A stretch of 64,000 nucleotides of DNA from a virus. A model generated the notes under the pieces. The model ran no database searches. It saw only the letters and a program-made list of their open reading frames with translations, and had not been told where the DNA came from. The stretch is taken from IMG/VR virus record IMGVR_UViG_3300028800_000089, positions 1-64,000 of that record. One strand, written 5' to 3'. Made by a program: the position numbers and the translations under genes. Of the stretch, positions 15,007 to 39,411 are shown one piece after another (positions within the stretch are counted from its first letter, which is position 1; each line of letters begins with the position of its first letter).

Positions 15007-15042
15007 ACTAGGACGTACTACGATGCGCTTTATTTTTTAGCT

Positions 15043-15541: not shown

Positions 15542-15550
15542 AGGGTTACA

Positions 15551-16987: not shown

Positions 16988-17234
16988 TGCTGACTACACC
17001 CTATTCCTGTGGCAGTGGTGCCCCATGTGCAAGGCACCATATATTGAGTGTCCGAAGTGTAAGAACAATACCTGTAGTGCCGGATTCGGAGAAGTAGACG
17101 GCAAAACCTGCCAGGTCTGCAATTTGGCGTATCAATACGCTCACCTGTGTTATGACAATGACCTAGCCCCTAAAACCAAGAAGCAAATAGCTTCTTTCAA
17201 CAAGAAAATCCAAAAGAAAAACGGAGCCACGTAA
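16977..17234 (+). CDS. Multi-Cys zinc protein
   Basis: 85 residues. Three CxxC-type units (CPMC, CPKCKNNTC, CQVC) can hold two zinc ions. Basic C-terminus (KKQIASFNKKIQKK). It directly precedes the RNA ligase with a one-base junction; a role in RNA binding is possible. Confidence 0.65.
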   Translation: MADDADYTLFLWQWCPMCKAPYIECPKCKNNTCSAGFGEVDGKTCQVCNLAYQYAHLCYDNDLAPKTKKQIASFNKKIQKKNGAT

Positions 17235-21023: not shown

Positions 21024-21701
21024 GTGGCACCACTGAAATTACATAATCAAAAATTCGGAAAATTAATCGTGTTAGATAAAGCGCCAAAAATTCCAACCCG
21101 TAACGGTAAGACTTTTGGTAAAACCCAATGGATCTGTAAGTGTGACTGCGGAAAAATTAGAGTAGTAGACGGTTCAGCCCTAACAACCGGTCATACAACA
21201 TCATGCGGGTGTAACTGGAGCACGGCAGAAAGACGTTCTGAGATTTCTGTTAGAAATACCTCGCACGGTAAAAGCAAAACGAGAATTTATAGTATTTGGA
21301 GACACATGATAGAACGTTGCGAGAAGCCTAACACAGAAAATTATGCTAGATACGGCGCCCGGGGTATAACGGTCTGTGAACGGTGGCATAATTTTGAGAA
21401 TTTTTATGAAGATATGAGTTCTACATACAGCGATGAACTGACATTAGATAGAAGAGATGTCCACGGTAATTACGAGCCCCTGAATTGTAGGTGGGCCACA
21501 AACGCCGAGCAAGCTCAGAATACTACGAAAAATAGATATTACGACTATAACGGCGAGAAACTTTGCCTCATGGAAATAGTGCGGCGCAAGAGGCTATATT
21601 CATATGCAACTGTACACAATAGATTAAAAAACGGTATGACTTTAGATGATGCTTTAAACAAACCCTTGCGCGGTTCTGTTAAGTTTGGTCAGGCCGGATG
21701 A
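21024..21701 (+). CDS. HNH-type homing endonuclease-like protein
   Basis: 225 residues from a GTG. An N-terminal zinc-like unit (CKCDCGK...TSCGCN, about 37-75) is followed by YGARGITVCERW...F..F and LDRRD..G.YEP.NCRWAT...Q..N (about 110-165), the arrangement of stand-alone phage HNH/AP2-like homing endonucleases. The C-terminus looks like a DNA-binding helix region. The coding sequence is visibly richer in A and T than its neighbours, which suggests recent arrival. It ends 23 bases inside the terL 3' end on the other strand. Confidence 0.75.
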   Translation: MAPLKLHNQKFGKLIVLDKAPKIPTRNGKTFGKTQWICKCDCGKIRVVDGSALTTGHTTSCGCNWSTAERRSEISVRNTSHGKSKTRIYSIWRHMIERCEKPNTENYARYGARGITVCERWHNFENFYEDMSSTYSDELTLDRRDVHGNYEPLNCRWATNAEQAQNTTKNRYYDYNGEKLCLMEIVRRKRLYSYATVHNRLKNGMTLDDALNKPLRGSVKFGQAG

Positions 21702-24981: not shown

Positions 24982-26082
24982 ATGCCAGAGCCTATTGCGG
25001 TTGCGCTAGGCGACATCCACTTGGACCCGAAGATATGGTCCAGTATAGACGCTGTAAGAGGAGACGCTGAGCTGGGTTACAGCGAATTCATTAGAGTGGC
25101 TCTTCAATTAGGAGTGCCACCAGTGATTGTCGGTGACCTGTTTGACACCACAAAGCCTACCCCGGACCTCGTAGCGATTCATCGGCGCCAAATGGATCGC
25201 TGTCAGAAAGCTGGAGTCCCAGCGTACTTCATTCAGGGCAATCATGACCTCCAATCAACACCCTGGGCTAGTGCCCTACATGACTGGCCCAAGTACGTTG
25301 GCTCCGGGGAACCGTTTCAGTTAGGTCGTCGGATGGCCCTGGGATTCGATTACAGCCACAAAGAAGACATCAAGGCCTCACTAGAGGGGTCACAGAAGAA
25401 ACTCTTTCCTAGCGACGGGAAATGCCTCCTGTTCCTCCATCAGGCCGTTAGGCAAGCCCTGGGCTTCGAGAATGCCTGGAACTGTGACTTGGACTGGATC
25501 CCGGAACAGTTCGGACTGACAGTAATTGGCGATATCCATAAAACGTTGGATTTCGAATTATCAAGTAACCGGAAAGCCTGCTATACCGGTTCCGGTCATG
25601 CCAGGGATATCACACAGATCGGGCCTAAGAGCTGCATCGTCATAAATGACGATTTGTCATATTACCGGCACCCCATGGCTTTTAGGCATATCAAGAAGTT
25701 CGTCGTCGTAGACGAAAAAGGTCTCGCTGACGTCCAGAGCTGGCTGTCTGAGGCGTGTGCTTCAGAAGAAGCTGGCCCTCTCCTACCATTTGCCTGGATC
25801 CACCATAGTCCGGAGCTGAATTCTGCTTTCAGTGATATCTACAAACAATTCGTTGAAACACGAAAGGCCATCATCCACCGAGACAAGGTCTTGGACATCC
25901 AAGATGCTGAAGAACTAGAGATCTCTCAGGATACTGAAGACATCTCTATTCCAGCATTGCTAAATACATTAGTAAGTTCCGACAAAGAGCCGGAACTACA
26001 TAGCTTCTTATTACACCTCCTTGAACCAACCTCTAACCCAGTCGATGTACTCCTAAAAAAGAGAGAATCCGTCAATGCCTGA
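24982..26082 (+). CDS. sbcD: SbcD/Mre11-type nuclease subunit
   Basis: 366 residues, AAAGGA before the ATG. Calcineurin-like phosphoesterase motifs run in order: GDIHLD (D11, H13), VGDLFDTT (about 50-57), QGNHD (about 86-90), then GDIHKT (about 179-184) and GSGHARD (about 202-208). These ligate two Mn ions in Mre11/SbcD/T4 gp47 nucleases, which pair with a Rad50-type ATPase to process DNA ends. The partner SbcC lies at 29239, but four ubiquitin-system genes are inserted between the two subunits. The stop overlaps the E2-like start, so translation is coupled. First gene after the twin hairpins. Confidence 0.9.
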   Translation: MPEPIAVALGDIHLDPKIWSSIDAVRGDAELGYSEFIRVALQLGVPPVIVGDLFDTTKPTPDLVAIHRRQMDRCQKAGVPAYFIQGNHDLQSTPWASALHDWPKYVGSGEPFQLGRRMALGFDYSHKEDIKASLEGSQKKLFPSDGKCLLFLHQAVRQALGFENAWNCDLDWIPEQFGLTVIGDIHKTLDFELSSNRKACYTGSGHARDITQIGPKSCIVINDDLSYYRHPMAFRHIKKFVVVDEKGLADVQSWLSEACASEEAGPLLPFAWIHHSPELNSAFSDIYKQFVETRKAIIHRDKVLDIQDAEELEISQDTEDISIPALLNTLVSSDKEPELHSFLLHLLEPTSNPVDVLLKKRESVNA

Positions 26083-27589
26083 TCTAGTCTTAGTTCGCTC
26101 CGAGGAAATGACTCGCGAGCAACTCCGTGGTATCGGTCTTCGGGTCTACGGTGAGCCACAATATGGTGGCCACTTCGTTGCCCGTGAAGCATTACTTGTC
26201 AAAATCGGTGAATCCGGTCGTAGAGTCAACGGTACCAATATCGTAGAATCCGGAGCTGCAACATACCGTGTCGCCAATATTGTGTTCCGCGATGGCTCCA
26301 AAGCCGTAGCAACTGTTGATCCTAATTCGGTTCGTTTGATCCAATGGGGTGTCGTCCGTGGTGGCGATGTCGGTATGCTGAACCGTGTCGAGTGGCCGAA
26401 GATCCTGAAGAACACGTTGGTCCCCGTTATCAACCGCGATATCGTCATCGACGTTCCTCACGGTGAATACGGCTGTGTCGCACACAATACCGTTGAAACC
26501 GTATTCAAGGTCCACGTCTGGGGCAGCCCGGAACCGCGAAACGGAGACGAGGAAGCGTATAACCCACCACGGACTCTATGGGGCCACAGACTGCCAACGG
26601 GCGACCGTATGTCAGCGGGTCTCTGGACCGAGGGTGTCAACGTCATTTCACCGGAGTCACCGGCCGACAAGCCCATTGCGTGTTTCGACGAGGGTAACCT
26701 CTATATCTACGCCGATCTCTGTCATACCGATAGCACCCCAGAAGTGCATATCTTCGGTGAGATCATCAAGTTCGTAGCCGCCAATTATGCTGCCGCAAAG
26801 GGCAGAGTCGATGATCCCGTGGTTATGCGCAACAATTACGTCAACTTAGTCGAGAAGCGTAAGGCCCTCCAGGTCCGCGAGTTCACGAACGAGTTGGAAA
26901 GTGTCAGAAGCCACCTTCACGATCTGAATCGTGACGTAGTCGTGCAGATCCGCGAGGAGAAGCGTATCCTCAAGGATCTCTCTGCGTTAGACAATGATGA
27001 CGCATTCAATATCGAGCGGTTCGCCTCGGAGTACGATCGTCTCGTAGCCAACCCGTTGATTAAGTCCGTTAAGATGATGAACGGTAACATCACGGTGCGC
27101 ACCAACACGCTGTGCGTCACTGACCCCCGGACGAGCATCGAACACGAAGTCGGTCGGATGATGATTCACTTGGATATCAAGCGGTACAACGTCGTTGTAA
27201 CGAACTTGGATCGCCAGGTCCATGGATTGCAGAGCAACATGCATGGCCCACATGTGTTCGCCAATGGCCGTATGTGCCTCGGCAACATGGAAGAGGTTCT
27301 ACCGAAGCTCGTTGCCCAGTATCAATTAGCGGATGCTATTGAGCTAGTAGTTGCCATTCTCCAGACCTGCAATGTCGATGACCCAGCAGGCCGGAAGGTC
27401 AATTGCTGGCCATTATCGGAGAAGCAGAAAGCTAAAGATGCCGCAGCGAAGGCTGAAGCCAAGCGCCTCGCGAAAGCAGTTAAGACCGATGGCACCATTG
27501 AAGTTGATACCAGAGCGACAGTTGATGATGGCATGTTAGATGGTACCGAAGAAGACGTCACTACACCAGTTCCAGAGGCAGCATTCTGA
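26075..27589 (+). CDS. E2-like ubiquitin-conjugating protein (cassette A)
   Basis: 504 residues. The C-terminal part (about 330-450) carries HGPHVFANGRMCLGNM, which matches the E2 core HPN-x-G-x(V/I)CL: H393 followed by candidate catalytic C401. It is followed by helices (AIELVVAILQ) and a D-x-x-G....WP turn, as in prokaryotic E2-like families. Residues 265-310 look coiled coil; residues 1-250 are an unrecognised beta-rich region that could bind targets. The tail is Ala/Lys then Asp/Glu/Thr-rich and probably flexible. Coupled to SbcD upstream and, by a TGATG junction, to a JAB protease downstream. E2 identity rests on the motif and the E1/JAB/Ubl neighbours. Confidence 0.8.
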   Translation: MPDLVLVRSEEMTREQLRGIGLRVYGEPQYGGHFVAREALLVKIGESGRRVNGTNIVESGAATYRVANIVFRDGSKAVATVDPNSVRLIQWGVVRGGDVGMLNRVEWPKILKNTLVPVINRDIVIDVPHGEYGCVAHNTVETVFKVHVWGSPEPRNGDEEAYNPPRTLWGHRLPTGDRMSAGLWTEGVNVISPESPADKPIACFDEGNLYIYADLCHTDSTPEVHIFGEIIKFVAANYAAAKGRVDDPVVMRNNYVNLVEKRKALQVREFTNELESVRSHLHDLNRDVVVQIREEKRILKDLSALDNDDAFNIERFASEYDRLVANPLIKSVKMMNGNITVRTNTLCVTDPRTSIEHEVGRMMIHLDIKRYNVVVTNLDRQVHGLQSNMHGPHVFANGRMCLGNMEEVLPKLVAQYQLADAIELVVAILQTCNVDDPAGRKVNCWPLSEKQKAKDAAAKAEAKRLAKAVKTDGTIEVDTRATVDDGMLDGTEEDVTTPVPEAAF

Positions 27590-28326
27590 TGTTCAATCCG
27601 CACAAGTTCGAGACCACTGTACTAGGCGTCCCATCGGTAAAGGTTTCGTTTAGGGCAGCAGTAGACATGTGGACATTAACTGACTTAGTCAACACCGAAG
27701 TCGGTTGGTTGACTACGGCGCGCATGGTCAAGGAACCCAATGAGACCGTCATCTACGTTGATGACGTCTACTTGTTCAAGCAGCAGGTTCACTCGACGAC
27801 TACGGAGCTGACATCCGAGGGTCTGTCGATGCTGGGTACCCAATTGATTGCCGAGGACCAAGCTGCTGGTGTTGATCCCACGTTGTGGCGAGCCAACAAC
27901 CTCCGGGGCTATTTCCATAGTCACGTCCACATGGACGTCATGCCCTCCGGACAGGATGAGCAGCAGACCATCGATTTCCGCGACAAGTACGAGTATCCCT
28001 GGGTCCTTCGGGGTATCGTCAATAAGAAGCACAAGATGAAGCTCGATCTGTATTGGTTCGAGCGCGATATGGTCATCAACGATATCGACTGGGAAATCGA
28101 TTATACCACCTTCGGTGACCGCAAGGAACACTGGGGCAAGGAAATCGAGAGCCTCGTCGAATCGTTGTATTCAGCGAATAAGAGCACTCCTATTTCGTAT
28201 CCCGTCGGTAATTTTACGGATCCCCATCGTGGTCCGTCGGAATTCAGGCGTCTCGGGGAGTTTGCTCCGAATAGCACTCGTCACTACGGACAGCCATCGC
28301 TAGTTGGCTACCATCATGGCGACTAA
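27589..28326 (+). CDS. JAB/MPN-family metalloprotease (cassette A)
   Basis: 245 residues. The complete JAMM zinc site is visible: E37 (TEVGWL), H110-S-H112, then S120 and D123 in PSGQD, with exactly the HxH-x7-S-x2-D spacing of active enzymes (the usual Pro after HxH is Val). Such proteases cut behind ubiquitin-like domains, maturing precursors or removing Ubl from targets. The C-terminal 80 residues are extra and Pro/Ser-rich. It sits between the E2-like and E1-like genes, so a role in Ubl maturation or deconjugation is the natural inference. Confidence 0.85.
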   Translation: MFNPHKFETTVLGVPSVKVSFRAAVDMWTLTDLVNTEVGWLTTARMVKEPNETVIYVDDVYLFKQQVHSTTTELTSEGLSMLGTQLIAEDQAAGVDPTLWRANNLRGYFHSHVHMDVMPSGQDEQQTIDFRDKYEYPWVLRGIVNKKHKMKLDLYWFERDMVINDIDWEIDYTTFGDRKEHWGKEIESLVESLYSANKSTPISYPVGNFTDPHRGPSEFRRLGEFAPNSTRHYGQPSLVGYHHGD

Positions 28327-29017
28327 TCTCACTGATACCATTCGACATCTCAAGGTCTTCTCACCGGTCAAGTTCGACAATACCAGAATCGATGTAATCG
28401 GCGTAGGTGCCACTGGCAGTCGTATTGCCATGGCCCTTGCCAAGCTCGGTGTCCTGAACCTGCATATCTGGGATTTCGACAAGGTCGAGTCCCACAATAT
28501 TGCGAATCAAATTTATGGGAACAATGATATCGGCAAGTTCAAGGTAGACGCCTTAGCCGATCTCATCAAGGCCCAGACCAATTTAGACGTGACCAAGCAC
28601 AACGAGGCCGTCAATGGTCGTTCCGCGCTGGGTTCCGTTGTATTCCTGCTTACCGATACGATGTCTTCCCGGAAGGAGATCTGGGAAGGCGCGATTAGGT
28701 ATAAGCCATTTATTGAAGTCATGTTCGAGACCCGCATGGGTATCGACCTAGGCAGGACCTATTGGGTGCGCCCAACCTCGCCTGATGACGTCAAATTCTG
28801 GGAGTCCACGCTCTGCGGCGACGAAGAAGTCGTTGTTGTCAGTGCCTGTGGATCACAAATTACCGTTGGTTCCACTGCCGAGATCGTTAGCGGTCTCGCG
28901 GTGTGGAACTTCATTAATTGGTTCAATTGGTATTCTGACACGACCAATAAGGTCGAGCAGATGCCGAAAGAGACAATTTTTGGTGTAACTCCCCCAGCTA
29001 TCCTAACCCGTTCGTAA
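28316..29017 (+). CDS. ThiF/MoeB-type E1-like Ubl-activating enzyme (cassette A)
   Basis: 233 residues from the ATG at 28316, overlapping the JAB stop; a TTG at 28304 is possible. Adenylation motifs: IGVGATGS (G29, G31, G34), DFDKVE (D53, D55) and N61 followed by I.NQ, where the usual Arg of N-x-x-R-Q is missing. C178 in SACGSQ aligns with C173 of the second E1 in this window and may carry the Ubl thioester. No zinc CxxC pairs of MoeB type. A minimal E1 of this kind adenylates a Ubl C-terminus and hands it to the E2. Confidence 0.85.
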   Translation: MATNLTDTIRHLKVFSPVKFDNTRIDVIGVGATGSRIAMALAKLGVLNLHIWDFDKVESHNIANQIYGNNDIGKFKVDALADLIKAQTNLDVTKHNEAVNGRSALGSVVFLLTDTMSSRKEIWEGAIRYKPFIEVMFETRMGIDLGRTYWVRPTSPDDVKFWESTLCGDEEVVVVSACGSQITVGSTAEIVSGLAVWNFINWFNWYSDTTNKVEQMPKETIFGVTPPAILTRS

Positions 29018-29028
29018 GAAAGAATCCC

Positions 29029-29235
29029 ATGAATATCACCATCGGCAAGTTCCCCGGCACCTCCATCCGTTCCATCGTCCTCCCCGAGGGCGCCAAGGTC
29101 CGTGATGCCCTAGCGGCCTCAGGCATTGACAGCACCGGCTTCGACATCCGTATCAATGGCAGCGCCGGCACTGTTGACAGCCCGGTTTCTGAAGGTAATG
29201 CTGTTCTCTTGACCCAGAAGATCAAGAGCAACTAA
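29029..29235 (+). CDS. Single ubiquitin-like/ThiS-like protein (cassette A)
   Basis: 68 residues with the pattern of a beta-grasp sulphur-carrier/ubiquitin fold: two N-terminal strands, a helix (KVRDALAASG), then IRINGS...VDSPVSEGNAVLL, which aligns with VVRVNGT..SIGSPVRHGDFVQI in repeat 1 of the triple-Ubl protein at 31563. It ends in QKIKSN with no Gly-Gly, so either another residue is used or it works by non-covalent binding. Lies between the E1-like gene and SbcC. Confidence 0.75.
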   Translation: MNITIGKFPGTSIRSIVLPEGAKVRDALAASGIDSTGFDIRINGSAGTVDSPVSEGNAVLLTQKIKSN

Positions 29236-29238
29236 CCC

Positions 29239-31560
29239 GTGATTTTGACGCGATTACAAACGACAAACTGGGGCTGCCTGAAGTCCGTAGATATCCGGTT
29301 CAGCGAAGGCTTGACCGGTATTCTAGGGCCTAATGGCAGTGGTAAATCGACGCTACTCGATGCGCTTCGATTTGCCGTTACCGGTGAGTCAGTCGCGTCA
29401 GGACCACGAGCTGACAATATCACCTTGGGCGAACGTACTGGATCAGTTACGTTGGCGTTCGCCCACGGGGATAGCAGCTACGAGGTTAAGCGCGTTCTAG
29501 AGCCGTCGCGGCAGCAATTGAAGTTTCCCGGTGGAACCGTTAGTCGGCAGGCTGAGATCGAGGAGAAGCTCACGCTTCTTCTCGGTACCAGAATGGATGC
29601 GTTGCTCAACAACGTGTTCATCGCCCAACACGATATCGACGCCATTCTATTCAAGACCAATACCGAGAGACTCCGGGAGTTCCAGGACACCTTCGGCTTA
29701 TCCAAGGCCGCTGAGGTATACACCCTGCTGTCCACTGAGATCTCCTCGCTAAGCGTCACCACTGGGCTGGAGCAGCAATTACAGGTTACCGCCGGAGCAT
29801 GCCAAGACGTTACCAAGGAACTCAACGAATTACGGGAACAGCTCCGCCTCACTGAGGACGAGCTGTTGGAATTGTCGAAGTACGAGGAGAGGTTGAGGCA
29901 TTACAGAATAGCTCAGCAAAGCGCATCAGCTAAACGGCAAACCGAAGAGGCTCTTTCCCTGGCGCAGCAGCGCTATATAGAGTCCGACAAGGTTCTGGGT
30001 ATAGCCAAGGATGAGCACGCCATTATTGTGCAGCGCTTCACAGCGATGCAGCCAATGGCAGCCGAGCAGGCCAAGGAGCTGGATCAAGCCAAGGCTACAG
30101 CAGCACAGCGCCGACTATTGGATAGCGAGCGCCATAATCTTGAATCCAATAAGATGAAGCCAGAAGCTGAACTGGGTAGTCATGATGAGCTAATCAATAA
30201 GCTCTCAGAAACCCGTTCTAAGCTCAAGGCTATTATCGGTAAAGAAGCGCCTCTCCCGCAGACGCCCGAAGATAAGGATCTCGCTCAAAGAGTCGAGGAG
30301 CTGACGAAGCAATTGTCGGAGCTTCGACGCGATGATCCCAATTTGGCACTTATAGAAGCTGACATCCACCGGATCAAGCACGAACTCGAAACGTTCGCCG
30401 GTGGTCAGTGTCCTACGTGTCATCGTCCCATTGATAATTTCGACGACGCCGAGTTGAAGCGCCAAGCACAGGTTAAGCAAGTAGAGATTGCGAAGATCAA
30501 AAGTGATCAAGCCAAAAGAGTAGCTGAAGCGCAGAATGATTTGGCAGTTATTTCGAAGCGATTAGAAGAGCGTCGTAAAGCCGCGATGACAGCTGTCATC
30601 AATATGCTTGAGGCGACTAAGAAGCAATACGACAAGCTCGTGTCAGACAAGAATGCGCTGACACAGCAATGGGAGACCTATAACAGGTGTCATGCCAGAT
30701 TGAGTGCTATTCGCGCCCAGCTGGACAGCACCCCAGATGTAGGTACCGATAAAATAGAAGCGCTCCAGAAGGCTGTGGAGCAATTCAGGGCACTACAGGA
30801 TCAAGTTCAGAAATCGGAGTCTGAGGTTCGTATTAAGCAAGCAGCCCAAGCGTCTTGTACGTCAGAGGTTACAAGGCTCAAGGATTTGTTGCTTAAGGTC
30901 AGTGATAGCAAGTTCGAGTTGTCCGAAGCTGAGTTGCAAGAGGCTCAACTGAAGATTGAGTTATTGTCTGCGCGGACACAAACTCGGAACGAGCTAACTA
31001 CGAAGATTGGCATTACTGATGCCAAGCTGATCCAGCTCCGGAGTTCCGTGGATCAATTGAAGAAGCAGTACGACCACGAGCGCAATGCCGCCAAGTGGTC
31101 GTCACTGTGCTCAAGAGCCAGGGAGGTCGTTCACGTTAACGGCTTACCGGCTCTGATGATGCGGGAGTATGCCAATAAGATCAACAAGCGCATGGCGCAC
31201 TACATGTCGATCTGGGAGGCCCCGTTTCAATTCTACCTGGATGGCGACCTGTCGTTTAAAGCCAAGTTCAGTAGTGGCTTTGAGCTACCGGCGCACCGGT
31301 TAAGCGGTGGTCAGAAGATTGTTGCCAGTACTAGTTTCAGGCTGGCGATGTCCGATACCTTCGCACGGTCAGTTGGACTGTTGATACTCGACGAGCCAAC
31401 GAACCATTTAGATGAAAGTAACGTTGTGCATTTGCAGCAATTGTTACTCAAATTAAAGCAGTTTTCCGGGAGTACCGGAAGACAGATACTGATTGTAACC
31501 CACGCTGAATCACTAACCAGCTTCTTTGATCAAACCATCAAATTAGCTAAAAAGGAATAA
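29239..31560 (+). CDS. sbcC: SbcC/Rad50-type SMC ATPase
   Basis: 773 residues from a GTG three bases after the Ubl gene. Walker A GPNGSGKST (about 30-38), long coiled coils (about 170-390 and 395-620) on either side of a zinc hook C391-P-T-C394, ABC signature LSGGQK (about 688) and Walker B LLILDEPTNHLDE (about 714-726). This is the full layout of Rad50/SbcC/T4 gp46. It clamps DNA ends together with SbcD (24982). Flanked on both sides by Ubl genes, an arrangement not expected for an ordinary phage recombination operon. Confidence 0.92.
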   Translation: MILTRLQTTNWGCLKSVDIRFSEGLTGILGPNGSGKSTLLDALRFAVTGESVASGPRADNITLGERTGSVTLAFAHGDSSYEVKRVLEPSRQQLKFPGGTVSRQAEIEEKLTLLLGTRMDALLNNVFIAQHDIDAILFKTNTERLREFQDTFGLSKAAEVYTLLSTEISSLSVTTGLEQQLQVTAGACQDVTKELNELREQLRLTEDELLELSKYEERLRHYRIAQQSASAKRQTEEALSLAQQRYIESDKVLGIAKDEHAIIVQRFTAMQPMAAEQAKELDQAKATAAQRRLLDSERHNLESNKMKPEAELGSHDELINKLSETRSKLKAIIGKEAPLPQTPEDKDLAQRVEELTKQLSELRRDDPNLALIEADIHRIKHELETFAGGQCPTCHRPIDNFDDAELKRQAQVKQVEIAKIKSDQAKRVAEAQNDLAVISKRLEERRKAAMTAVINMLEATKKQYDKLVSDKNALTQQWETYNRCHARLSAIRAQLDSTPDVGTDKIEALQKAVEQFRALQDQVQKSESEVRIKQAAQASCTSEVTRLKDLLLKVSDSKFELSEAELQEAQLKIELLSARTQTRNELTTKIGITDAKLIQLRSSVDQLKKQYDHERNAAKWSSLCSRAREVVHVNGLPALMMREYANKINKRMAHYMSIWEAPFQFYLDGDLSFKAKFSSGFELPAHRLSGGQKIVASTSFRLAMSDTFARSVGLLILDEPTNHLDESNVVHLQQLLLKLKQFSGSTGRQILIVTHAESLTSFFDQTIKLAKKE

Positions 31561-31562
31561 CC

Positions 31563-32228
31563 ATGTCTATCGCCATCACTCTCGAACTAAACGGCAACCG
31601 CGAGGTTCGCGAGGTTTCGTATGTCACCAATGTCAGCGATCTGCTGAACGCACTGTCGCTATCGCGTGGCTCAGTCGTGCGCGTCAACGGGACCGAGGCC
31701 AGCATCGGCAGCCCCGTGCGTCACGGTGACTTCGTTCAGATTTCCGTCGTAGCCGTGGCCCCGGTCGCTGCGACGACCCCAGGCGGTAAGGTCCTGTTCA
31801 TCAACAATGATGGTGCAGGCTTCGCTGACCCGGTTGCTTTCGCGGCCGGTACCAATCTCGGTCAGTTCATCGCTGAGCGTGATATCTCCATTTCCGGCAA
31901 GATGATTCGCGTCAACAACAACCTGGCCGATGCCGGCTACGTTCTCCGTGACGGTGATAAGATCTCGGTTACCCCGCTCAAGGTCGAGGGTGCCGTGGAG
32001 ATGATCAAGGTCCTGTACATCAACAACGACGGTTCAGGTTTCGCTGAGCCAGTGCAGGCTATTTCGGGCGTCACGCTGTTCCAGTTCCTTGCTCAGCAGG
32101 GCTCTGATCCGGCCGGCAAGATGGTCCGTCTGAACAACGATATCGCTGCCGGGACGACCGTGCTGCGTAACGGTGACAAGATCTCCGTTACCCCGCTCAA
32201 GGTCGAGGGTGCCGGTTCGCGTAATTAA
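31563..32228 (+). CDS. Triple ubiquitin-like protein (polyUbl)
   Basis: 221 residues made of three beta-grasp repeats: 1-66, 76-144 and 148-217. Repeats 2 and 3 share (K)VL(F/Y)INNDG(A/S)GFA(D/E)PV, KM(I/V)R(V/L)NN and GDKISVTPLKVEGA. The 43 bases from 31953 and from 32172 differ at only two positions, so this duplication is recent or homogenised. Repeat 1 resembles the single Ubl at 29029. A linker with Gly74-Gly75 precedes repeat 2, and VEGA ends repeats 2 and 3; these are candidate JAB cut sites giving several Ubl units. The final GAGSRN would be the tail. Likely the modifier pool for the E1/E2 enzymes. Confidence 0.8.
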   Translation: MSIAITLELNGNREVREVSYVTNVSDLLNALSLSRGSVVRVNGTEASIGSPVRHGDFVQISVVAVAPVAATTPGGKVLFINNDGAGFADPVAFAAGTNLGQFIAERDISISGKMIRVNNNLADAGYVLRDGDKISVTPLKVEGAVEMIKVLYINNDGSGFAEPVQAISGVTLFQFLAQQGSDPAGKMVRLNNDIAAGTTVLRNGDKISVTPLKVEGAGSRN

Positions 32229-32265
32229 TCATTAATTGCGTATTACTGTATCAATTAATCGTTAA
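32223..32265 (+). promoter_or_regulatory. Direct repeat pair, possible operator
   Basis: AATTAATCATTAA at 32223-32235 and AATTAATCGTTAA at 32253-32265 differ by one base and start exactly 30 bases apart, about three helical turns. Within them ATTAATTG and CAATTAAT also form an inverted repeat. The first copy overlaps the polyUbl stop codon. This is the only gap between the two Ubl cassettes' genes and could bind a regulator. Confidence 0.5.
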
Positions 32266-32282
32266 CTACACAAACCACAAAG

Positions 32283-32314
32283 CCCCCATGGTAACCCCAT
32301 GGGGGTGTCTTTTT
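32283..32314 (+). terminator. Strong intrinsic terminator
   Basis: CCCCCATGG (32283-32291) pairs perfectly with CCATGGGGG (32297-32305) around TAACC, followed by TGTCTTTTTC. Nine GC-rich pairs and a T-run make this the clearest terminator in the window. It ends the SbcD-to-polyUbl unit. Confidence 0.85.
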
Positions 32315-32324
32315 CAGAGAACAC

Positions 32325-33122
32325 ATGACTACACTCGTCGCACCGGGCGTCACGCTCAAGGATTTCATCTTTGATCTCTTTAATGAGGATAAGAGCAATG
32401 CAGAAGTCGCCAAGATTTTGGGCGATACCTGCGATTACGATAAAGTCGCAGCTTACCGAGTGGCCTGGAAAAAGGCTACCGGTCATGAAGACATGCATCA
32501 TACCACAAAGCATCTCCTCATCGATAAGCCCTTAGCAGGCGTGACTGATGCCCTTATCTATGAAACCAACGGTTTCAAGGATAACGGTGATAAAGGTGAG
32601 ATGACTATAGCTTTTGAACGGCACGGTAGGACCGTTTCCAAGAGCAAGAAGGATGGCGATGTCAAGAAAGTCACATACGCCGAACTAGCCAAGATTAACG
32701 GTAATACCGGTAGAATATTCGACGGCGTAGCCTGTGATGGTTACGGCGAGGAATCCATGAAGCTGCTGGCCATGGGCATAGTGCAGCTGATCAAACCAAC
32801 TGGAGGTTGGCTGTGGATCACGAATAACCTGCCCAATAAGTTCTGTAGTAGACTACCTCTACTCCAGGCAGTTGCGTGTAATTATTATCGTACCCCGACT
32901 CCCGAGGAAGCTGACTTTATTGACGCAGTAGCTAGATATTGCTTCATGTGGGGCTTCCTAGCTGACCCATTCCAGTCGATGGTCTTCGGTGGTGGTGGTA
33001 AGGGAATTATACAGACTGTGTTCAAGTTGAGCCAATTGCCGATGCCCAAGTTCGAAGGTGATCAATCTTGGAAGAAGGAGCGATTGGAAATAGCCAAGTT
33101 AATCAATGACGTGGAGGGATAA
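32325..33122 (+). CDS. Hypothetical protein, 265 aa
   Basis: ATG soon after the terminator; CAGAGAA precedes it. The N-terminal 50 residues could form a helix-turn-helix (SNAEVAKILG...VAAYRVAWKKATG). The middle is Gly/Lys/Asp-rich and the C-terminal half helical. Not recognised. It opens the second transcription unit that leads into cassette B. Confidence 0.7.
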   Translation: MTTLVAPGVTLKDFIFDLFNEDKSNAEVAKILGDTCDYDKVAAYRVAWKKATGHEDMHHTTKHLLIDKPLAGVTDALIYETNGFKDNGDKGEMTIAFERHGRTVSKSKKDGDVKKVTYAELAKINGNTGRIFDGVACDGYGEESMKLLAMGIVQLIKPTGGWLWITNNLPNKFCSRLPLLQAVACNYYRTPTPEEADFIDAVARYCFMWGFLADPFQSMVFGGGGKGIIQTVFKLSQLPMPKFEGDQSWKKERLEIAKLINDVEG

Positions 33123-33421
33123 TGAATGATGTAAAAGAGTTAATTAACAAGTTCAAGCTGAAGCCATATCCTCATGACAGAGGAATGGCTAGAGACCTGA
33201 TCTGTCCTAATTGTGGTAATAGAGATCAGTTCAAGATATCTGGTGTCTGTGTCGCCGTTATCGACGGTGAAGGCTATATTCACGAGGTAACCGGATATGA
33301 GTTCCATGATAGGAGCCTCTGTCTGTGTTTCGGATGTGACAAAGAGGACGACGTCTCAGTGTTTAAGGCCAAGGGCCTAGACGCCGAGCTTTCTAAGGTA
33401 AGTAATGTCAGTAATACATGA
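33122..33421 (+). CDS. Zinc-ribbon protein
   Basis: 99 residues in a TAATG junction. CPNCGNRDQFKI (about residues 28-39) and CLCFGC (about 67-72) frame a beta-rich segment, a zinc ribbon like those of primases and transcription factors. It overlaps the start of the large E2-like gene and so is probably co-translated with cassette B. Confidence 0.65.
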   Translation: MNDVKELINKFKLKPYPHDRGMARDLICPNCGNRDQFKISGVCVAVIDGEGYIHEVTGYEFHDRSLCLCFGCDKEDDVSVFKAKGLDAELSKVSNVSNT

Positions 33422-35723
33422 CGGAGCAGACGTTTCATGGCAGCCTGATTACGAGAGCGAAGCTTCCGAGTTCTTTGAACGGCTTCGCGCTCGCCAAGCT
33501 CGTACAAGTATAGGAATCCCAGTTGACTTGACGCAACAAGCGACAATCAGCAATGACGGTCGTATGGTGATGGTATCGACCCCAACGCGTCCAGTAAGTA
33601 TAATGGACGTGGCGGAGGATGCGACAGATCGGTTTACTAGGGAGCAGCACCAGCTTTTGGAGCGTATACAGCGCGGGGAAGGCGAATTTTCTATTCTGTC
33701 GAGGCCTTATAATACCGTGAGAGTAGATGAGAGTGATGAATCGGATAGGCTTGACTTACTCAATAATTTGCCGCAGCCAATTAGTAACGCCGTAGCAGGT
33801 ACTTCAGGGCCGAATACGGACGCAGCTGACGCATTACACCATGCCATGGAAGTAATGCGTAACAGCCTGGCTATCCCACAGGATATGATGGTACCAGTTG
33901 TCAGACCCATGCCGCATCTACCGTTTACGGTATCATCAGAGGTGACGAGACCATGGCTGATGACATCCAATGAATTGCGGCTCGATTCGGTACATGTTAA
34001 TAATGAATTCAGGTTTTTATCAGCAAGCACAGGACGAACACCCCAGGAACAACATGTGAGAGAACTTCCAGCGGATAAAGCATTAGCAGTAGAGAAGCTA
34101 GTCCAAGAGGCACTTCCACCGCAAGAGATGTCGCCAATTGTTGCGGAGCAGCACACTAGCCTAGTAAAGTTGGCTAAGGCCTTCTACTTAGGTTACTTAG
34201 AGGGCAACAACGGTAGCCACAGAGACGTCAATGAGTCGCTGTACAACACCATGCGCCAGGCTATCGGTCGCTGGCACGGCGTCTTGTCCGTCAGAAACGA
34301 TTCCGACAAGCCGGGCTATATCATGTCGCAGCTATTTAGGAACAACGCCGATTCCCTGACTCTGGAGAAGCTAAACGCCATTAAGAACGGTACCAACCCG
34401 TTCACCGCTGCTCCCCCAGTGGTATCAGACGATATCGTGAAGCGGTTCATTATTGAGATGGCCGGTATGTTGAACGCGAAGATAGCAGTCCTGGTCATGG
34501 ATATGAGTTCGAACCTAGAAGGTGGGAGTGCTCCGCGTGGCGGTGCCCGCTTTACTACTGGTGACGTGACGCTGACCGATGAAGGCGAAGATATCATGGT
34601 TGGCCCAGTCGCGTTGGGTAAGTTCGATGTAAGTGTTAACATATACGACTTCGGCTTGGTCTGCGGTAACCAGGAGTCCGGAGTAAATGACATCGTTAGA
34701 ATATCCGCTCAGACCCCGGTATACCCCCGTAACGAACGTGGTGGCTTCGTCCACCCGCACGTCGAGGGATCTAGATTGTGTTTCGGTGACGGCCTAGCTG
34801 TTGCCGGCAATCTCGTACGTGCTGGGCTCATTGCTGATCTGTTCCAGTACGTTGAGCGTATTCTCATGACCTATGGGTCATCGCCGTACATCGATTTGAG
34901 TGAATGGACCGATTTGGATCATTGCAGCGTCTGCTCGGCTACGATACAGCCCGATGATGCTTATCACGATCCCCATAGCGGCCGAGACCTCTGTGAGGAA
35001 TGTGTAGGGCACTGTGATATCGGTAATACCGATGTCGATAGAAGGTACATACGGCACTGCTCTAAGTGCAATCTACACTTCGATGAGCGCTCGTATTACG
35101 GTAGAGTCGAAGAGGAACGCCGCCGTGAGACCAGGTTTATCTGTCTTCGCTGTGTCGAGAAGGAGCAGGTAGAGGCAGCTAAGCTCGCAGCTGAAATCGC
35201 CTCTAAGGCTATGGATACTACAACGACGCCAGCCTTCCCAGTAGTTGCACCGACCCCGGGCAAGAACTGCCCAAGTTGCGGTGCTAGTATCGGTGAGGTG
35301 GTGGTCAATCCGGATGGTTCAGTAGTAGTTGAAAATAAGATTACTGGCTATGATCCCATTATGCAGGTTATGACCTGTGATCACTGTGACCCAGCTGGTT
35401 ATAATTTGTCCAATGCCGTGTGTACCCCAGGGATGCGTGAAGCATACCTAGCGACGCTTATGGCGCATTACGTACCACACGACTTCATTCAGGACATCTT
35501 CATCAACAATGAAGAGAGCTTCGAATCCGAGGCTGATAAGGCTGAATGGCGTGCCATCGATTGGTACACGTTATTGACAACATTCCGGAATAACCTCATG
35601 GATCACGGGCCGCTACGTCAAGATATGGCTTTCGCAGCCGTAATCGACAAGCTCTGTGAATTAGCTGAATACAACATATTCTCAGAACTGACGTATCGCC
35701 TTGCAACACCGAGAACAGCATGA
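33405..35723 (+). CDS. E2-like protein with multi-CxxC zinc region (cassette B)
   Basis: 772 residues. Around residues 380-500 the sequence ends in GFVHPHVEGSRLCFGDG, which aligns with the E2 motif of the protein at 26075 (HGPHVFANGRMCLGN): H451/H453-region and candidate catalytic C459, then helices (LIADLFQYVERIL). Directly after comes a zinc region: C507/C510, C530/C533 with H536, C552/C555, C580/C583, then C622/C625 and C658/C661. The first four pairs could be a treble-clef or RING-like binuclear site, which would make an E2-E3 fusion; that assignment is inference. Residues 1-370 are unrecognised, with a helical domain at about 250-330. ATGA junction with the JAB gene. Confidence 0.7.
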   Translation: MSVIHDGADVSWQPDYESEASEFFERLRARQARTSIGIPVDLTQQATISNDGRMVMVSTPTRPVSIMDVAEDATDRFTREQHQLLERIQRGEGEFSILSRPYNTVRVDESDESDRLDLLNNLPQPISNAVAGTSGPNTDAADALHHAMEVMRNSLAIPQDMMVPVVRPMPHLPFTVSSEVTRPWLMTSNELRLDSVHVNNEFRFLSASTGRTPQEQHVRELPADKALAVEKLVQEALPPQEMSPIVAEQHTSLVKLAKAFYLGYLEGNNGSHRDVNESLYNTMRQAIGRWHGVLSVRNDSDKPGYIMSQLFRNNADSLTLEKLNAIKNGTNPFTAAPPVVSDDIVKRFIIEMAGMLNAKIAVLVMDMSSNLEGGSAPRGGARFTTGDVTLTDEGEDIMVGPVALGKFDVSVNIYDFGLVCGNQESGVNDIVRISAQTPVYPRNERGGFVHPHVEGSRLCFGDGLAVAGNLVRAGLIADLFQYVERILMTYGSSPYIDLSEWTDLDHCSVCSATIQPDDAYHDPHSGRDLCEECVGHCDIGNTDVDRRYIRHCSKCNLHFDERSYYGRVEEERRRETRFICLRCVEKEQVEAAKLAAEIASKAMDTTTTPAFPVVAPTPGKNCPSCGASIGEVVVNPDGSVVVENKITGYDPIMQVMTCDHCDPAGYNLSNAVCTPGMREAYLATLMAHYVPHDFIQDIFINNEESFESEADKAEWRAIDWYTLLTTFRNNLMDHGPLRQDMAFAAVIDKLCELAEYNIFSELTYRLATPRTA

Positions 35724-37120
35724 CAAACATCACTGATATCAAGTTAAAGTTCACCCCGTATTCACGGGCCAAGCTCCAATTCATCTGTGATCACTATGAT
35801 CACGAGGTTGGAGCCATGGGCATCGCTGAGACGGCTGACCCATTCCTGGTTACTGATCTGTTCATTCCGAAGCAGAAGTGCTCCCCGGTATTCGTGGAGA
35901 TGGACCCCAGCGACCTAGCTGATTCCATGTTCATGACCTATTGTGACCCCGACGGTCCGCATAAGTTGAAGCCCCATCAGGTCGGTCGTATCTTCATTCA
36001 TACTCACCCGACGGGCTGCTTGGATCCGTCTCCGCATGATGAAACCATCTTCGCGGAGTCCTTCGGTTCGCAGCCCTGGGCAATGATGGTCATCCTACCA
36101 AAGGGTGGTCGTCTCTATGCCCGTGTCCGTGTAGCACTTGGAAACGATATTAACCTCCAGATGCGCATCCCCGACGAGATGGTTATTACCACCGACTTCA
36201 AGGGTGCAGATCATGCTGCGTGGAAGGCGGAGATCGATCCGAAGATTACGTCCGAGGTTTTTACTTATCAGGGTACTTCGGATGCTAAGCCGGGGTACAA
36301 AGGGATCGTGAAGCTTCCAAGCGGATACTGGGGTAAGCGCCTCAGTAAGAAGCAGCTGAAGCGTGCCGCTAGAGCCGCCGCCCGTGAGGGAGCTGCACAG
36401 CGTCAGGAGACTATTGAGGAAGCGGCTAAGAATATCGTAGTCCAAGGGGAGGAGGAGCTGTCCAACATTCCGTTTCCCTTCCAGCACGATACCCAGCAAG
36501 ACGCCGACGGAGATTCCCTTATTGCGTCGAGCAAGTACGTCGATGCAATCTATTCTGAATTGGCTCTTCGGTGGGTTCCGCCGTGTACCGCTGAAAGAAT
36601 CGAGTACCTGAAGAGCTTCGGCTTTACTCATGTAATCGATGATGAGAAGCATACCGAGCGGTTTACTATACCACGCGGTGATACGTTCTTCGATCTGCCG
36701 TTCAAGCAGGCCTGGGCGTTCGTAGAGGAAGAAGAGGGTCTAGCAGCTGAGCGCGAAGATTTCGAGCGTGCCATGCATATTTCGACGCACATGCGGAAGT
36801 ACGGTGACGTCCTCTGCACCGGTGATTTCGTTACGAATACTTACAAGAAGGTCAGAGCAGACTGTCTCTGGCAGCTCAAGGGATCCACTGATGCCAGTGA
36901 CGCCCTTGTGCTTACCCGTGATGAGATGCTGATTGCCGAGCAAGTCGTTGCCGGAACGTTGACGGCAGACGAGGCCCTGAATCGCATTCCCGATGTCGTT
37001 GACGAGCAAGAGGTTATAGAGAGTAATGGAGTATTCACGGAGTATTGTGCTTCGACTCCAGAACCAACAACGAGAACACAAACTGAGGAGGAATACCTTC
37101 TCATGCTAGGGGAAAACTAA
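35720..37120 (+). CDS. JAB/MPN metalloprotease with long C-terminal extension (cassette B)
   Basis: 466 residues. The N-terminal domain (1-150) has a canonical JAMM site: E29 (HEVGAMG), H94-T-H96-P, S104 and D107 in PSPHD. This is closer to the consensus than the cassette A enzyme. A basic helical segment follows (KRLSKKQLKRAARAAARE, about 210-228), then an acidic linker and a C-terminal helical domain (about 270-466) that I cannot assign. The extension may recruit particular substrates. Overlaps both E2-like and E1-like genes by a few bases. Confidence 0.85.
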   Translation: MTNITDIKLKFTPYSRAKLQFICDHYDHEVGAMGIAETADPFLVTDLFIPKQKCSPVFVEMDPSDLADSMFMTYCDPDGPHKLKPHQVGRIFIHTHPTGCLDPSPHDETIFAESFGSQPWAMMVILPKGGRLYARVRVALGNDINLQMRIPDEMVITTDFKGADHAAWKAEIDPKITSEVFTYQGTSDAKPGYKGIVKLPSGYWGKRLSKKQLKRAARAAAREGAAQRQETIEEAAKNIVVQGEEELSNIPFPFQHDTQQDADGDSLIASSKYVDAIYSELALRWVPPCTAERIEYLKSFGFTHVIDDEKHTERFTIPRGDTFFDLPFKQAWAFVEEEEGLAAEREDFERAMHISTHMRKYGDVLCTGDFVTNTYKKVRADCLWQLKGSTDASDALVLTRDEMLIAEQVVAGTLTADEALNRIPDVVDEQEVIESNGVFTEYCASTPEPTTRTQTEEEYLLMLGEN

Positions 37121-37803
37121 TGCCAGCAGAACCGACGCGCTTTGATCGTCAGTCCACCGTCATCCCCACTGAGGAGCTACTTGCTACCTCAGCGGTGGTG
37201 ATCGGTGTAGGAGCCATTGGCAGGCAGGTAGCTCTCCAGCTATCTGCCTGTGGTATCGGTGAATTGCATCTCGTCGATTTCGACACCGTTGACATCGTCA
37301 ATGTCGGCCCCCAGGGCTATAAGCCAGCTGATGTCGGCAAGCCCAAGTGTGCTGCACTGATTGCAGACTGTATCGCCCTGAATCCCGACGGTGTTAACAT
37401 TGCCCACGAGATGCGCTTCTGCGATGCCATCCGTGGTGACGTCTATTTCTGCTGTGTCGATAGTATTAAGACCCGTGGCCAGATCTTCGACGAGGTAGCT
37501 AAGCTGCCGGACACCGAGTTGTTCATCGATGCCCGTATGTCAGCTGAGACGATCCGTGTTATCACCGAAGACAACTTCGTTGAGCCACAGTATCGTGGTA
37601 CCATATTCGAGCCAGCAGAAGCCTTCCAGGGGGCCTGCACCGCGAAGTCCACCATCTTCACAGCCAATATCGCTGCTGGTCTGATGGTGAGCCAGTTCTC
37701 TAAGTACCTCAGGGGCATGGCATTAGAAAAGGACTTCAATTTGAACCTGCTGTCCCTAGAGTTGTTCCCTACACCAAAGACAATGGCAGCAGCGGCGCGA
37801 TGA
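37120..37803 (+). CDS. ThiF-type E1-like Ubl-activating enzyme (cassette B)
   Basis: 227 residues, TAATG junction with the JAB gene. VIGVGAIGR (G29, G31, G34), VDFDTVD (D53, D55) and N61 are at the same residue numbers as in the cassette A enzyme. The Arg finger motif is changed to N-V-G-P-Q. C173 in GACTAKST is the aligned candidate for thioester formation; several other Cys (101, 111, 112) are present. About the size of minimal bacterial E1s. No own Ubl gene follows, so it may use the polyUbl of cassette A. Confidence 0.85.
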   Translation: MPAEPTRFDRQSTVIPTEELLATSAVVIGVGAIGRQVALQLSACGIGELHLVDFDTVDIVNVGPQGYKPADVGKPKCAALIADCIALNPDGVNIAHEMRFCDAIRGDVYFCCVDSIKTRGQIFDEVAKLPDTELFIDARMSAETIRVITEDNFVEPQYRGTIFEPAEAFQGACTAKSTIFTANIAAGLMVSQFSKYLRGMALEKDFNLNLLSLELFPTPKTMAAAAR

Positions 37804-37967
37804 AGTGTAAGGAGTGTGATATTGAGATGCAGACACACCCCGTGCATGAAATAGCGGATCTCCACTTCTGTGACATCTGTCACAAGGTATTGCTTTCCGA
37901 CGAGATGGGGGTAACAGAGTATAAGAAGGGTGAGTTCCATGAATGGGAGGAGTACATAAGTGATTAA
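37800..37967 (+). CDS. Small zinc-knuckle protein linking cassette B to helicase
   Basis: 55 residues in an ATGA overlap with the E1-like stop and itself overlapping the helicase GTG. KCKEC (3-6) and CDIC (24-27) give a four-Cys zinc site; His and acidic residues fill the rest. Its position makes it a candidate partner or adaptor of the Ubl enzymes or of the helicase. Confidence 0.65.
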   Translation: MKCKECDIEMQTHPVHEIADLHFCDICHKVLLSDEMGVTEYKKGEFHEWEEYISD

Positions 37968-39411
37968 CTTAACCTACAACGGCAGGTTGATGCTACTAAG
38001 GCCTGCCGCTCTAGGTAAGTCTTTCGAGAGCGACTGTACCGTGACGGTGATGCAGAATCAGGCACCGTCACCGGAGAATCATTGGAGACGCACCAGAGTG
38101 CCGGTGCCATGCCCGATGTATTGGTACGACAAGGACCCCGTCAGTAAAGAAGAGGTCTTCGTCACCTACATCGGGTATGCCCCAAGAATCATCGCCGGCC
38201 TAGAGAAGCTGGGGATGGATATCATCTACGATGACCGCAGGCCCTGTGGCTTGCCTACTCCTGATCTGTCCATCCTCCGTGGTATCGAATGGCGGTACCG
38301 ACAAGCCGAGGTATTCTCTGGCTTACTGGCGCATCGCGGTGGTATTATCAAATGCCCAACGGCGTATGGTAAGTCCTTCATGATCCGTCAGTTAGCCAGG
38401 GTGTACCCGACATCTAAAATTGTCGTTACAGTAGCTTCGTTAGACGTAGCTAGAACATTGTTCGACGAGCTGAAGCTGACCATTCCGGACCTAGGCTTTT
38501 GTGGTACCGGTGGCCAACGCCCCGGCAGGGTAACGGTCGCTGTATCCAAGAGCCTAGAGCATTGCCCCAAAGACGCTAACATCGTGCTCTGCGATGAGGC
38601 CCACACGCTATGCACCCCAACATACATCAAGTTGCTGAATCGATTCACTAAAGCAAAGATGTTCGGTTTCACTGCTACCCCAACTGGGCGCAGTGATAAC
38701 GGTGACGGCTTCCTAGAGTGTATTTTTGGTCCAATCATATCAGACGTTAGTTATCAAGAAGGTGTAGCACATGGAAACATTGTTCAGATTGATGCCCGTA
38801 TATATAGGTCTCCTCTTGGCCCTGACGTTTCCGGTATTAGCAATAAAGCTACAGCAGACCGCTTGGGGATTATTCGTAATGCCGATCGGAATACTCTCGT
38901 TATTCGTGCTGTTCGAGAGTTGGAGGAAGAGCTAGGCCCGTCTGCACAGATTCTTGTCATGGTCGATAAGATCGAACACGCCTACCTCTTGGGACAATCA
39001 CTACCGGACTACACGATTGTGACTGGGGTGCTCCAGAAGGAGCGTATCAACGAACTGATCAGTAACGGAGCCATGACCACGGATCAGGTCCTATGCAGTG
39101 CCAAAGACCGCGACATCCATAGGAGAGCCTTTGAGAAGAATGAGTTGAAGCGTGTCATCTGTACCCGTGTCTGGGAGAAGGGCGTAGACTTCCGTGACTT
39201 AATGGGTCTTGTTCGTGCCGATGGCCTAGCGTCGCCTATTGCGGCTGGCCAGATTCCTGGTCGCTTGAGTCGATTGGCAAAGACCGTAGAAAAGAAGAAT
39301 GGTCTCCTAGTGGATTTCTACGATAGTTTCAGTAAGAATCTATTGAGCCGTTCGAGACAGCGTATCAAGGAATACAAAGGCAATGGTTGGAACATCACCT
39401 ATAGGGACTAG
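37960..39411 (+). CDS. Superfamily 2 helicase, UvsW-like
   Basis: 483 residues from a GTG. Motif I TAYGKSF (about 131-137), motif II CDEAHT (about 211-216), motif III GFTATPTG (about 239-246) and motif VI GQIPGRLSR (about 430-438) are in order. The N-terminal 110 residues are a separate domain, as in T4 UvsW and related phage helicases that remodel branched DNA and recombination forks. Overlap with the small zinc gene places it in the same operon as the E2/JAB/E1 genes. Confidence 0.88.
   Translation: MINLTYNGRLMLLRPAALGKSFESDCTVTVMQNQAPSPENHWRRTRVPVPCPMYWYDKDPVSKEEVFVTYIGYAPRIIAGLEKLGMDIIYDDRRPCGLPTPDLSILRGIEWRYRQAEVFSGLLAHRGGIIKCPTAYGKSFMIRQLARVYPTSKIVVTVASLDVARTLFDELKLTIPDLGFCGTGGQRPGRVTVAVSKSLEHCPKDANIVLCDEAHTLCTPTYIKLLNRFTKAKMFGFTATPTGRSDNGDGFLECIFGPIISDVSYQEGVAHGNIVQIDARIYRSPLGPDVSGISNKATADRLGIIRNADRNTLVIRAVRELEEELGPSAQILVMVDKIEHAYLLGQSLPDYTIVTGVLQKERINELISNGAMTTDQVLCSAKDRDIHRRAFEKNELKRVICTRVWEKGVDFRDLMGLVRADGLASPIAAGQIPGRLSRLAKTVEKKNGLLVDFYDSFSKNLLSRSRQRIKEYKGNGWNITYRD

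Follow-up and report, generated by a model that had tools for sequence, protein, structure and literature searches.

Why would a phage carry, twice over and among its replication genes, the gene set of a ubiquitin-like conjugation system? The question is raised by the tailed-phage record IMGVR_UViG_3300028800_000089 of IMG/VR, of which we analysed bases 1-64000 out of 66,193 (hereafter the window). An original prediction, made from the letters of this DNA, had placed two sets of E2-like, JAB and E1-like genes, together with genes for ubiquitin-like proteins (Ubls), in the phage replication region at positions 24982-37967. All of these genes are present as stated and lie within that range; its first position, 24982, starts an SbcD gene and no gene of the Ubl system. 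On one strand, overlapping or closely packed, the run reads SbcD–E2a–JABa–E1a–Ubl1–SbcC–triple Ubl–two small open reading frames (ORFs)–E2b–JABb–E1b–helicase (Table 1). The neighbours of cassette A are therefore SbcD and SbcC (Mre11/Rad50-type), a setting that the original prediction had not stressed. Comparison of the proteins establishes the E1, JAB and Ubl families, their conserved active-site residues, the synteny of the block and two deep lineages. Judged from sequence, the phage probably encodes two complete, reversible pathways of Ubl conjugation and deconjugation, a reading to which we give about two chances in three.

Components of the two cassettes

Because single-sequence scans against Pfam, PHROGs, NCBIfam and PADLOC clearly find the E1s only, with PF00899 above the cut-off for both E1a and E1b, family profiles had to be built. 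The same scans gave zero matches for both E2s, sub-threshold Prok-JAB matches for the JABs (just 0.06 and 0.03) and weak, sub-threshold matches for the Ubls. Searched against PDB sequences, the E1 family profile matched UBA5 best (1.9e-16), with ThiF, MccB, UBA1, Cap2 and BubCD also among its matches. The invariant columns of the family hold the GxGxxG nucleotide site, DxD, N, K and the catalytic D of the ThiF fold, and the two window enzymes share the predicted layout at identical residue numbers (G29, G31, G34, D53, D55 and N61). Cys173 is invariant in ten of ten E1s and aligns near the UBA5 stretch 'REGVCAAS', a second stretch that scores just 0.7 bits. For E1a, which begins with ATG at 28316, an alternative TTG start lies at 28304. 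The JAB profile matched RPN11 (3.7e-6), CSN5 and JAMM1, and the sites that had been described as intact in both JABs are so: E37, H110, H112, S120 and D123 are invariant in 23 sequences, JABa and JABb included.

The two candidate catalytic cysteines of the E2s are where they had been predicted, Cys401 of E2a within HGPHVFANGRMCLGN and Cys459 of E2b within HPHVEGSRLCFGD, and both are conserved in a sister contig, IMGVR_UViG_3300028800_000073 (79.8 kb). All 38 relatives share the H, C and G of this motif; its variants are HPH, HSH and HGPH...C, the third residue being His where eukaryotic E2s have Asn. The E2 family profile matched a UbcH5B fusion among PDB sequences at 1.1e-3, followed mostly by UBE2D and UBE2L3 at 0.02-0.1, a level similar to that at which titin fragments score. 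In its alignment the phage Cys falls on the catalytic Cys (C85) of UbcH5 and HPH falls on HPN. This result is marginal by E-value and suggestive of a relationship to UBC enzymes.

Structure prediction adds to this comparison. The AlphaFold2 model of the E2a domain (predicted local distance difference test, pLDDT, 93; predicted template modelling score, pTM, 0.78) consists of a helix, a four-stranded meander, the active-site loop and two helices, and its top Foldseek match in the PDB is UBE2H (probability 0.94, E 0.017, TM score 0.44 on the target); the long N-terminal coiled coil of E2a lowers the query-side score. The E2b core, modelled at pLDDT 78, has its elements in the same order as E2a and gave weak Foldseek matches, mostly RWD and UEV domains (UBC superfamily) on top, at E 0.22 or worse. 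A BFVD structure search returned as top matches just unnamed or uncharacterised viral proteins. The two E2s are tied to each other by profile: an E2 hidden Markov model (HMM) built without clade B finds E2b (1.5e-8), and a clade-B-only HMM finds E2a (1e-9). Neither model indicates that the E2s lack the UBC fold, though the two bear on it unequally: the E2a model speaks for it, and E2b, with the weaker model, is linked to it by its profile tie to E2a. The UBC fold predicted for the phage E2s is well supported but not proved.

Several features outside or beside the E2 core were also observed. The N-terminal ~250 residues of E2a (window 26075-26830) form a separate region whose fold is unassigned and which has relatives in five loci (L001, L065, L094, L105 and L115, in the numbering of the loci described below). 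After the UBC part of E2b and of its relatives in large phages, the alignment contains many CxxC motifs resembling zinc knuckles, and this CxxC-rich tail could be an E3-like or nucleic-acid-binding part. Three loci (L064, L083 and L088) have two successive E2-like ORFs per cassette; of the two, the second has a low score and could be a partner or an inactive protein.

One single and one triple Ubl had been predicted, and both proved to be beta-grasp relatives by family profile, which matched SAMP2 (5.5e-9), PF1061, MoaD and ThiS among PDB sequences. The three repeats of the triple Ubl lie at about 31563-31757, 31788-31994 and 31998-32213. A loose pattern, [KE]-G-[GANE] followed by zero to six residues, describes 31 of 41 Ubl C-termini, and the tails vary by lineage, with KGN in A, EGA or EGE in B and KGG in others; in the window's triple Ubl, KVEG is followed by AGSRN.

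Tandem Ubl genes were also seen in other loci. L065 has three head-to-tail repeats at 8671-9336, each ending in EPIKGN, with one Lys after the last and with repeats 2 and 3 nearly identical; L051 has three at 2264-2893 ending in KQIKGN, and L042 two at 8882-9289 ending in AVKGG. By their sequences, these genes resemble polyubiquitin precursors.

Table 1. Positions of the block genes and of the terminase-like gene in the window
Feature	Position	Strand	Basis
Terminase-like gene, 570-aa ORF	21679-23391		assigned by eye
SbcD-like metallophosphoesterase (Mre11-type), first of the run	24982..26082	+	PF00149, E=3e-6
E2a: N-terminal region of ~250 aa, coiled coil, UBC-like domain (~residues 254-468) with HGPH...C401	26075..27589	+	family HMM, UBC profile, AlphaFold2, Foldseek
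JABa: JAMM/MPN+ isopeptidase, EXn-HSH-x7-S-x2-D	27589..28326	+	invariant JAMM residues; RPN11 profile match
E1a: short E1/ThiF-like adenylating enzyme, clade A	28316..29017	+	PF00899, 5e-17; tree; profile
Ubl1: 68-aa beta-grasp modifier of cassette A, ends ...TQKIKSN	29029..29235	+	family A8 profile: SAMP2/ThiS/MoaD
SbcC-like ATPase (Rad50-type), between the two Ubl genes	29239..31560	+	phrog_77 SbcC, 1e-44
Triple Ubl: three beta-grasp repeats, ends ...KVEGAGSRN	31563..32228	+	repeat alignment
265-aa ORF between the cassettes, no assigned function	32325..33122	+	kept in sister contig
99-aa ORF with CxxC motifs, no assigned function	33122..33421	+	conservation
E2b: UBC-like domain (~residues 315-510) with HPHVEGSRLC459FG	33405..35723	+	HMM, AlphaFold2
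JABb: JAMM/MPN+ isopeptidase with C-terminal extension	35720..37120	+	invariant JAMM residues; HMM
E1b: short E1/ThiF-like enzyme, clade B	37120..37803	+	PF00899, 1e-20; tree
ResIII/SNF2-type helicase, closes the syntenic block	37960..39411	+	PF04851, 6.5e-9

Distribution and gene context in phages

With one protein or two alignment rows as the query, searches of viral contigs returned the sister contig only, and tblastn of E2a and E2b gave no match in phage records. From a diverse ten-row E1 alignment, 215 relatives were recovered in viral contigs, of which 80 loci were kept; 74 are non-redundant, counting the window, the sister and a distant phage. All were found through their E1, which is therefore present in each by construction, and some are cut by contig ends. 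When HMMs for each component were applied to the 74 loci, E2 was detected in 52, JAB in 59, E2, JAB and E1 together in 44, and all four components with Ubl in 33 (the Ubl match of L072 looks spurious by position). The genes of the cassette thus do occur together in related phages, in the order E2-JAB-E1 nearly throughout, with the Ubl mostly directly before E2 or after E1.

Among named phages, tblastn of the E1s identified Flavobacterium phages (Fpv1 and others), crAss-like phages and Xanthomonas jumbo phages, in which the E1 gene is often labelled thiamine biosynthesis. An E2-like gene adjoins it in crAss-like cr85_1 (HSHICGIPIGDFERFETPCLG), in Fpv1 (HSH...FCIG) and in PhiXhv-12 (HPHMAVPSSQESHGSLCLG), and JAB-like genes adjoin E1 in the crAss-like and Flavobacterium loci. 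A candidate Ubl, encoded by a small ORF next to the PhiXhv E1, was rejected because it did not resemble one. In one scan of genome_contigs, full cassettes were found mostly on short contigs of metagenome-assembled genomes, which may be phage. A cellular or prophage form exists as well, because Obscuribacterales/Melainabacteria contigs (L105-L109 and L113, one of them 805 kb long) carry full cassettes, with Ubls ending in ...GN.

Replication and recombination genes neighbour the cassettes in several of these genomes: SbcCD, helicase and DnaB in the window; DnaB, Sak4, primase, uracil-DNA glycosylase, Holliday-junction resolvase and exonuclease in crAss-like phages; primase, uracil-DNA glycosylase and exonuclease VIII in Fpv1; and ligase and topoisomerase in PhiXhv-12. 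The neighbours are DNA polymerase, exonuclease VIII and single-stranded DNA-binding protein in L015, a DnaB-like protein, primase and polymerase in L065, a helicase in L078 and Erf in L066.

Another kind of neighbour was observed separately. At a distance of a few kb, the cassette is followed by an AAA+ ATPase gene (PF00004) in 12 loci, which span more than one E1 clade (L016, L017, L018, L021, L022, L023, L024, L035, L040, L048, L055 and L067); the same search saw none in the window. In L033, a ClpB/ClpA-like protein follows soon after E1.

Two E1 lineages around SbcCD

In the sister contig the entire block recurs in unchanged order, beginning with SbcD and running across both cassettes as far as the helicase, with identities of 60% for E2a, about 73-75% for JABa, 88% for E1a, 74% for Ubl1, 39% for E2b and 77% for E1b. 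A distant 179-kb phage, IMGVR_UViG_3300023202_000205, likewise has SbcD-E2a-JABa-E1a-Ubl1-SbcC-Ubl2-E2b-JABb-E1b-helicase at 24-60% identity per gene (39% for Ubl1, 42.5% for SbcD, 37% for SbcC), a single Ubl occupying the position of the triple one. Chance does not explain the block, because two other viral contigs, a distant one among them, have retained it gene by gene. These two were the records with two E1s and their cassettes among 40 whole viral records searched; a further candidate (G040) was rejected, its second, weak E1 match having neither E2 nor JAB beside it. In L065 (187 kb), cassette A stands alone, between SbcCD and helicase/DnaB genes and with a triple Ubl.

The original prediction had called the system duplicated, and here the E1 tree contradicts it. 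Among its 74 rows, E1a falls into a 14-row clade (support 100/97) and E1b into a 17-row clade (99/96), which includes many contigs of 130-180 kb; crAss-like and Flavobacterium phages form a third clade (100/100). Both lineages also occur alone in other phages. Because the two clades are deeply separated, each occurs singly and the block is syntenic in the 179-kb phage, the pair represents two lineages long associated around SbcCD and not a duplication.

The 179-kb phage (L094) has a further feature upstream of its SbcD-E2a run. At about 14000-15300 there is a CRISPR-like array, in which a 24-base word is repeated 9 times, and beside it lies an ORF of 626 aa without a Pfam match (15469-17346, minus strand); together they are possibly a phage-borne CRISPR system.

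Other genes of the window

Within each cassette and its Ubl/SbcC neighbours, intergenic gaps measure -17 to +11 bases; longer gaps follow the triple Ubl (96 bases) and precede the helicase (156). Of the two small ORFs between the cassettes, neither of which has a Pfam match, the 265-aa one has no relative found in the 179-kb phage and the 99-aa one is conserved in the sister contig only. The helicase ends the syntenic block in all three double-cassette contigs and has relatives in L001, L065 and L094. The window also encodes a DnaB-like helicase. By eye, an ORF that adjoins the terminase (21024-21701) has the look of a homing endonuclease, and a similar-looking ORF occupies the same place in L001 (2729-3508). 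A NADAR-domain gene lies at 50990-51520 (PF08719, 4.8e-24).

Proposed mechanism and alternative explanations

The pairing of Ubls with E2s, the order of transfer, conjugation itself and its targets are what we infer, as follows. In each pathway, trimming of the Ubl C-terminus and cleavage between tandem Ubls would fall to the JAB. After adenylation by the E1, the Ubl would be held on the conserved cysteine of that enzyme, pass to the HPx...C cysteine of the E2 and be joined by the E2 to a target; the JAB would also take it off again. Pathway A would combine Ubl1 with E2a, and pathway B the triple Ubl with E2b; the CxxC-rich tail of that protein is a candidate for E3-like binding to the target or to DNA. 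To go by gene context, the most likely targets are DNA replication or recombination proteins of phage or host, because such genes surround the cassettes in several groups of phages and because, in the window, SbcC lies between the two cassettes and SbcD directly beside them. We advance more tentatively a wider proposal: that two parallel Ubl circuits, each with a modifier, an E1, an E2 and an isopeptidase of its own, and in some relatives with polyubiquitin-like precursors, control an Mre11-Rad50-type nuclease and the replisome, and that this core module is ancient and shared by many tailed phages, the crAss-like ones among them.

Several observations weigh against working conjugation pathways with such targets. 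The phage E2s carry HPH where eukaryotic E2s carry HPN, and the Foldseek support for a UBC fold is modest, at the E-values given above for both proteins. The Arg of the N-x-N-R motif (NMNR in UBA5, NINR in PaaA) is absent from ten of ten phage E1s compared, all of which have N-x-x-[NPG]-Q instead; this weakens the case for canonical adenylation chemistry and leaves the E1 family assignment unaffected, because that assignment rests on the profile match. Ubl1 ends in KIKSN in the window and its sister where relatives have KIKGN, so that the terminal glycine is missing in these two phages, and the clade C (crAss-like) loci yielded no convincing Ubl. As for the targets, gene context is weak evidence, because the replication regions of large phages hold many unrelated genes.

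The cassettes might instead serve counter-defence or host takeover, by tagging and inactivating host proteins such as nucleases or defence factors, or through JABs that strip host conjugates of the Bil or CBASS type. Because bacterial Ubl systems act in anti-phage defence (PMC10097602), phages have a reason to carry Ubl machinery, and the window E1s do resemble the PADLOC E1-E2 models. Yet a JAB alone would suffice for stripping, and full E1/E2/Ubl sets kept with replication genes across several phage groups are more in keeping with a core function than with an accessory one that changes fast, which makes this explanation unlikely. The catalytic motifs are intact in both cassettes, which speaks against the possibility that one system was recently duplicated inside this phage, leaving one copy redundant or decaying. 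The shared order E2-JAB-E1 would agree with such an event; with the E1s in separate clades that also occur singly and the double block syntenic in the 179-kb phage, we consider its probability close to negligible.

Other explanations concern the chemistry. Acting as a sulfur carrier, the Ubl would donate sulfur from a thiocarboxylate, like ThiS and MoaD, to a nucleotide, tRNA or cofactor, with the E2-like protein as an adaptor. The matches of the Ubls to ThiS and SAMP2 and of the E1s to ThiF agree with this role, and SAMP2 does both jobs, modifier and sulfur carrier. Nevertheless, the same gene run encodes a conserved UBC-like domain with an invariant Cys, tandem Ubls fit modifiers better, and the scanned genes included none recognised as coding for a desulfurase, a rhodanese or a sulfur acceptor; we judge a sulfur carrier quite improbable. 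The E2-like proteins could also be non-catalytic adaptors of the RWD/UEV type, with the Ubls acting non-covalently, as HPH in place of HPN and the RWD and UEV domains that lead the matches of the E2b model, all of them weak, might suggest. Against this stand the active-site H, C and G, invariant in 38 diverse members, and the catalytic residues of the E1s and JABs, which are conserved too; we judge such a role very improbable. Reversible Ubl conjugation remains the reading that we prefer.

Significance

Prokaryotic Ubl conjugation is known mainly from bacterial defence operons and from archaea. The full E1-E2-JAB sets described here, many with Ubls, belong to invaders: they are widespread in phage genomes and lie with DNA replication and recombination genes. 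Among open-licence papers we found no report of a phage-borne E2-JAB-E1-Ubl cassette, and the main text of a survey of crAss-like phages (PMC7886860) mentions neither ubiquitin nor JAB nor ThiF. If the cassettes work, ubiquitin-like tags are a means by which phages regulate DNA proteins, whether their own or those of the host, related machinery stands on two sides of the phage-host conflict, and genes of crAss-like and Flavobacterium phages labelled 'thiamine biosynthesis', 'metalloprotease' or 'hypothetical' gain a testable function. The tandem-repeat Ubl genes are a viral parallel to polyubiquitin. Genetics is possible, because the Flavobacterium and crAss-like phages with cassette relatives have named bacterial hosts in their records.

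Comparison with known systems

Bil operons share Ubl, E2, JAB and E1 as components with the phage cassettes, and the BubCD proteins of antiviral ubiquitination-like operons are matched by the phage E1 profile at 3e-9. Operons of both types belong to bacterial defence, whereas the phage cassettes sit in viruses. The PADLOC scan gave no E2, JAB or Ubl match, a comparison with library models and not one-to-one with the Bil proteins. Similar gene content in a mobile-element setting is found in the PRTRC plasmid cassette (ThiF, E2-like, JAB and Ubl). Membership was rejected, since the window E1s score 35.5 and 28 bits against a PRTRC_ThiF cut-off of 144.75 and no other PRTRC model matched.

In the archaeal SAMP/UbaA/JAMM1 system, SAMP2 is the closest PDB match to the phage Ubl, and JAMM1 and UbaA are among the JAB and E1 matches. 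The archaeal system is not known to have a dedicated E2, whereas the phage has one per cassette. The UFM1 pathway shares a short E1, UBA5 being the best PDB match of the phage enzyme, and UFM1 is matured to a single terminal Gly, to be compared with the phage tails ...EG/A and ...KG/N. That pathway is eukaryotic, and its deconjugation is carried out by cysteine proteases, not by a JAB.

Type II of the cyclic oligonucleotide-based antiphage signalling system (CBASS) combines E1, E2 and JAB activities in Cap2 and Cap3, and the phage E1 profile matches Cap2 at 1e-9; this E1-E2 case has been known since 2023 (PMC10097602; PMC12355090). Cap2 is a single E1-E2 fusion that acts on a CD-NTase, whereas the phage E1 and E2 are separate genes with Ubls of their own, and no CD-NTase was noticed in the gene run of the window. 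Membership in CBASS type II was rejected on the grounds that E1 and E2 are separate and that the PADLOC matches run through the E1 part only.

E1/E2/JAB/Ubl operons and polyUbls are already known in bacteria since Iyer et al. 2006 (PMC1779556), whose account of such operons distinguishes groups 6a-6e. Nearest to the phage cassettes, with the same activities in one operon, are group 6d, which likewise has separate E1, E2, JAB and Ubl genes, and the polyUbl group 6e, with two to three Ubl domains. As described there, the 6d E2s are without the classical His and the 6e E2s are called inactive, whereas the phage E2s keep HPH...C. A phage case given in that account is a TAPI/TAPK pair of the tail. 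The operons described in PMC1779556 come from bacteria, plasmids and integrative and conjugative elements; those reported here lie in phage replication regions, two per genome and together with SbcCD.

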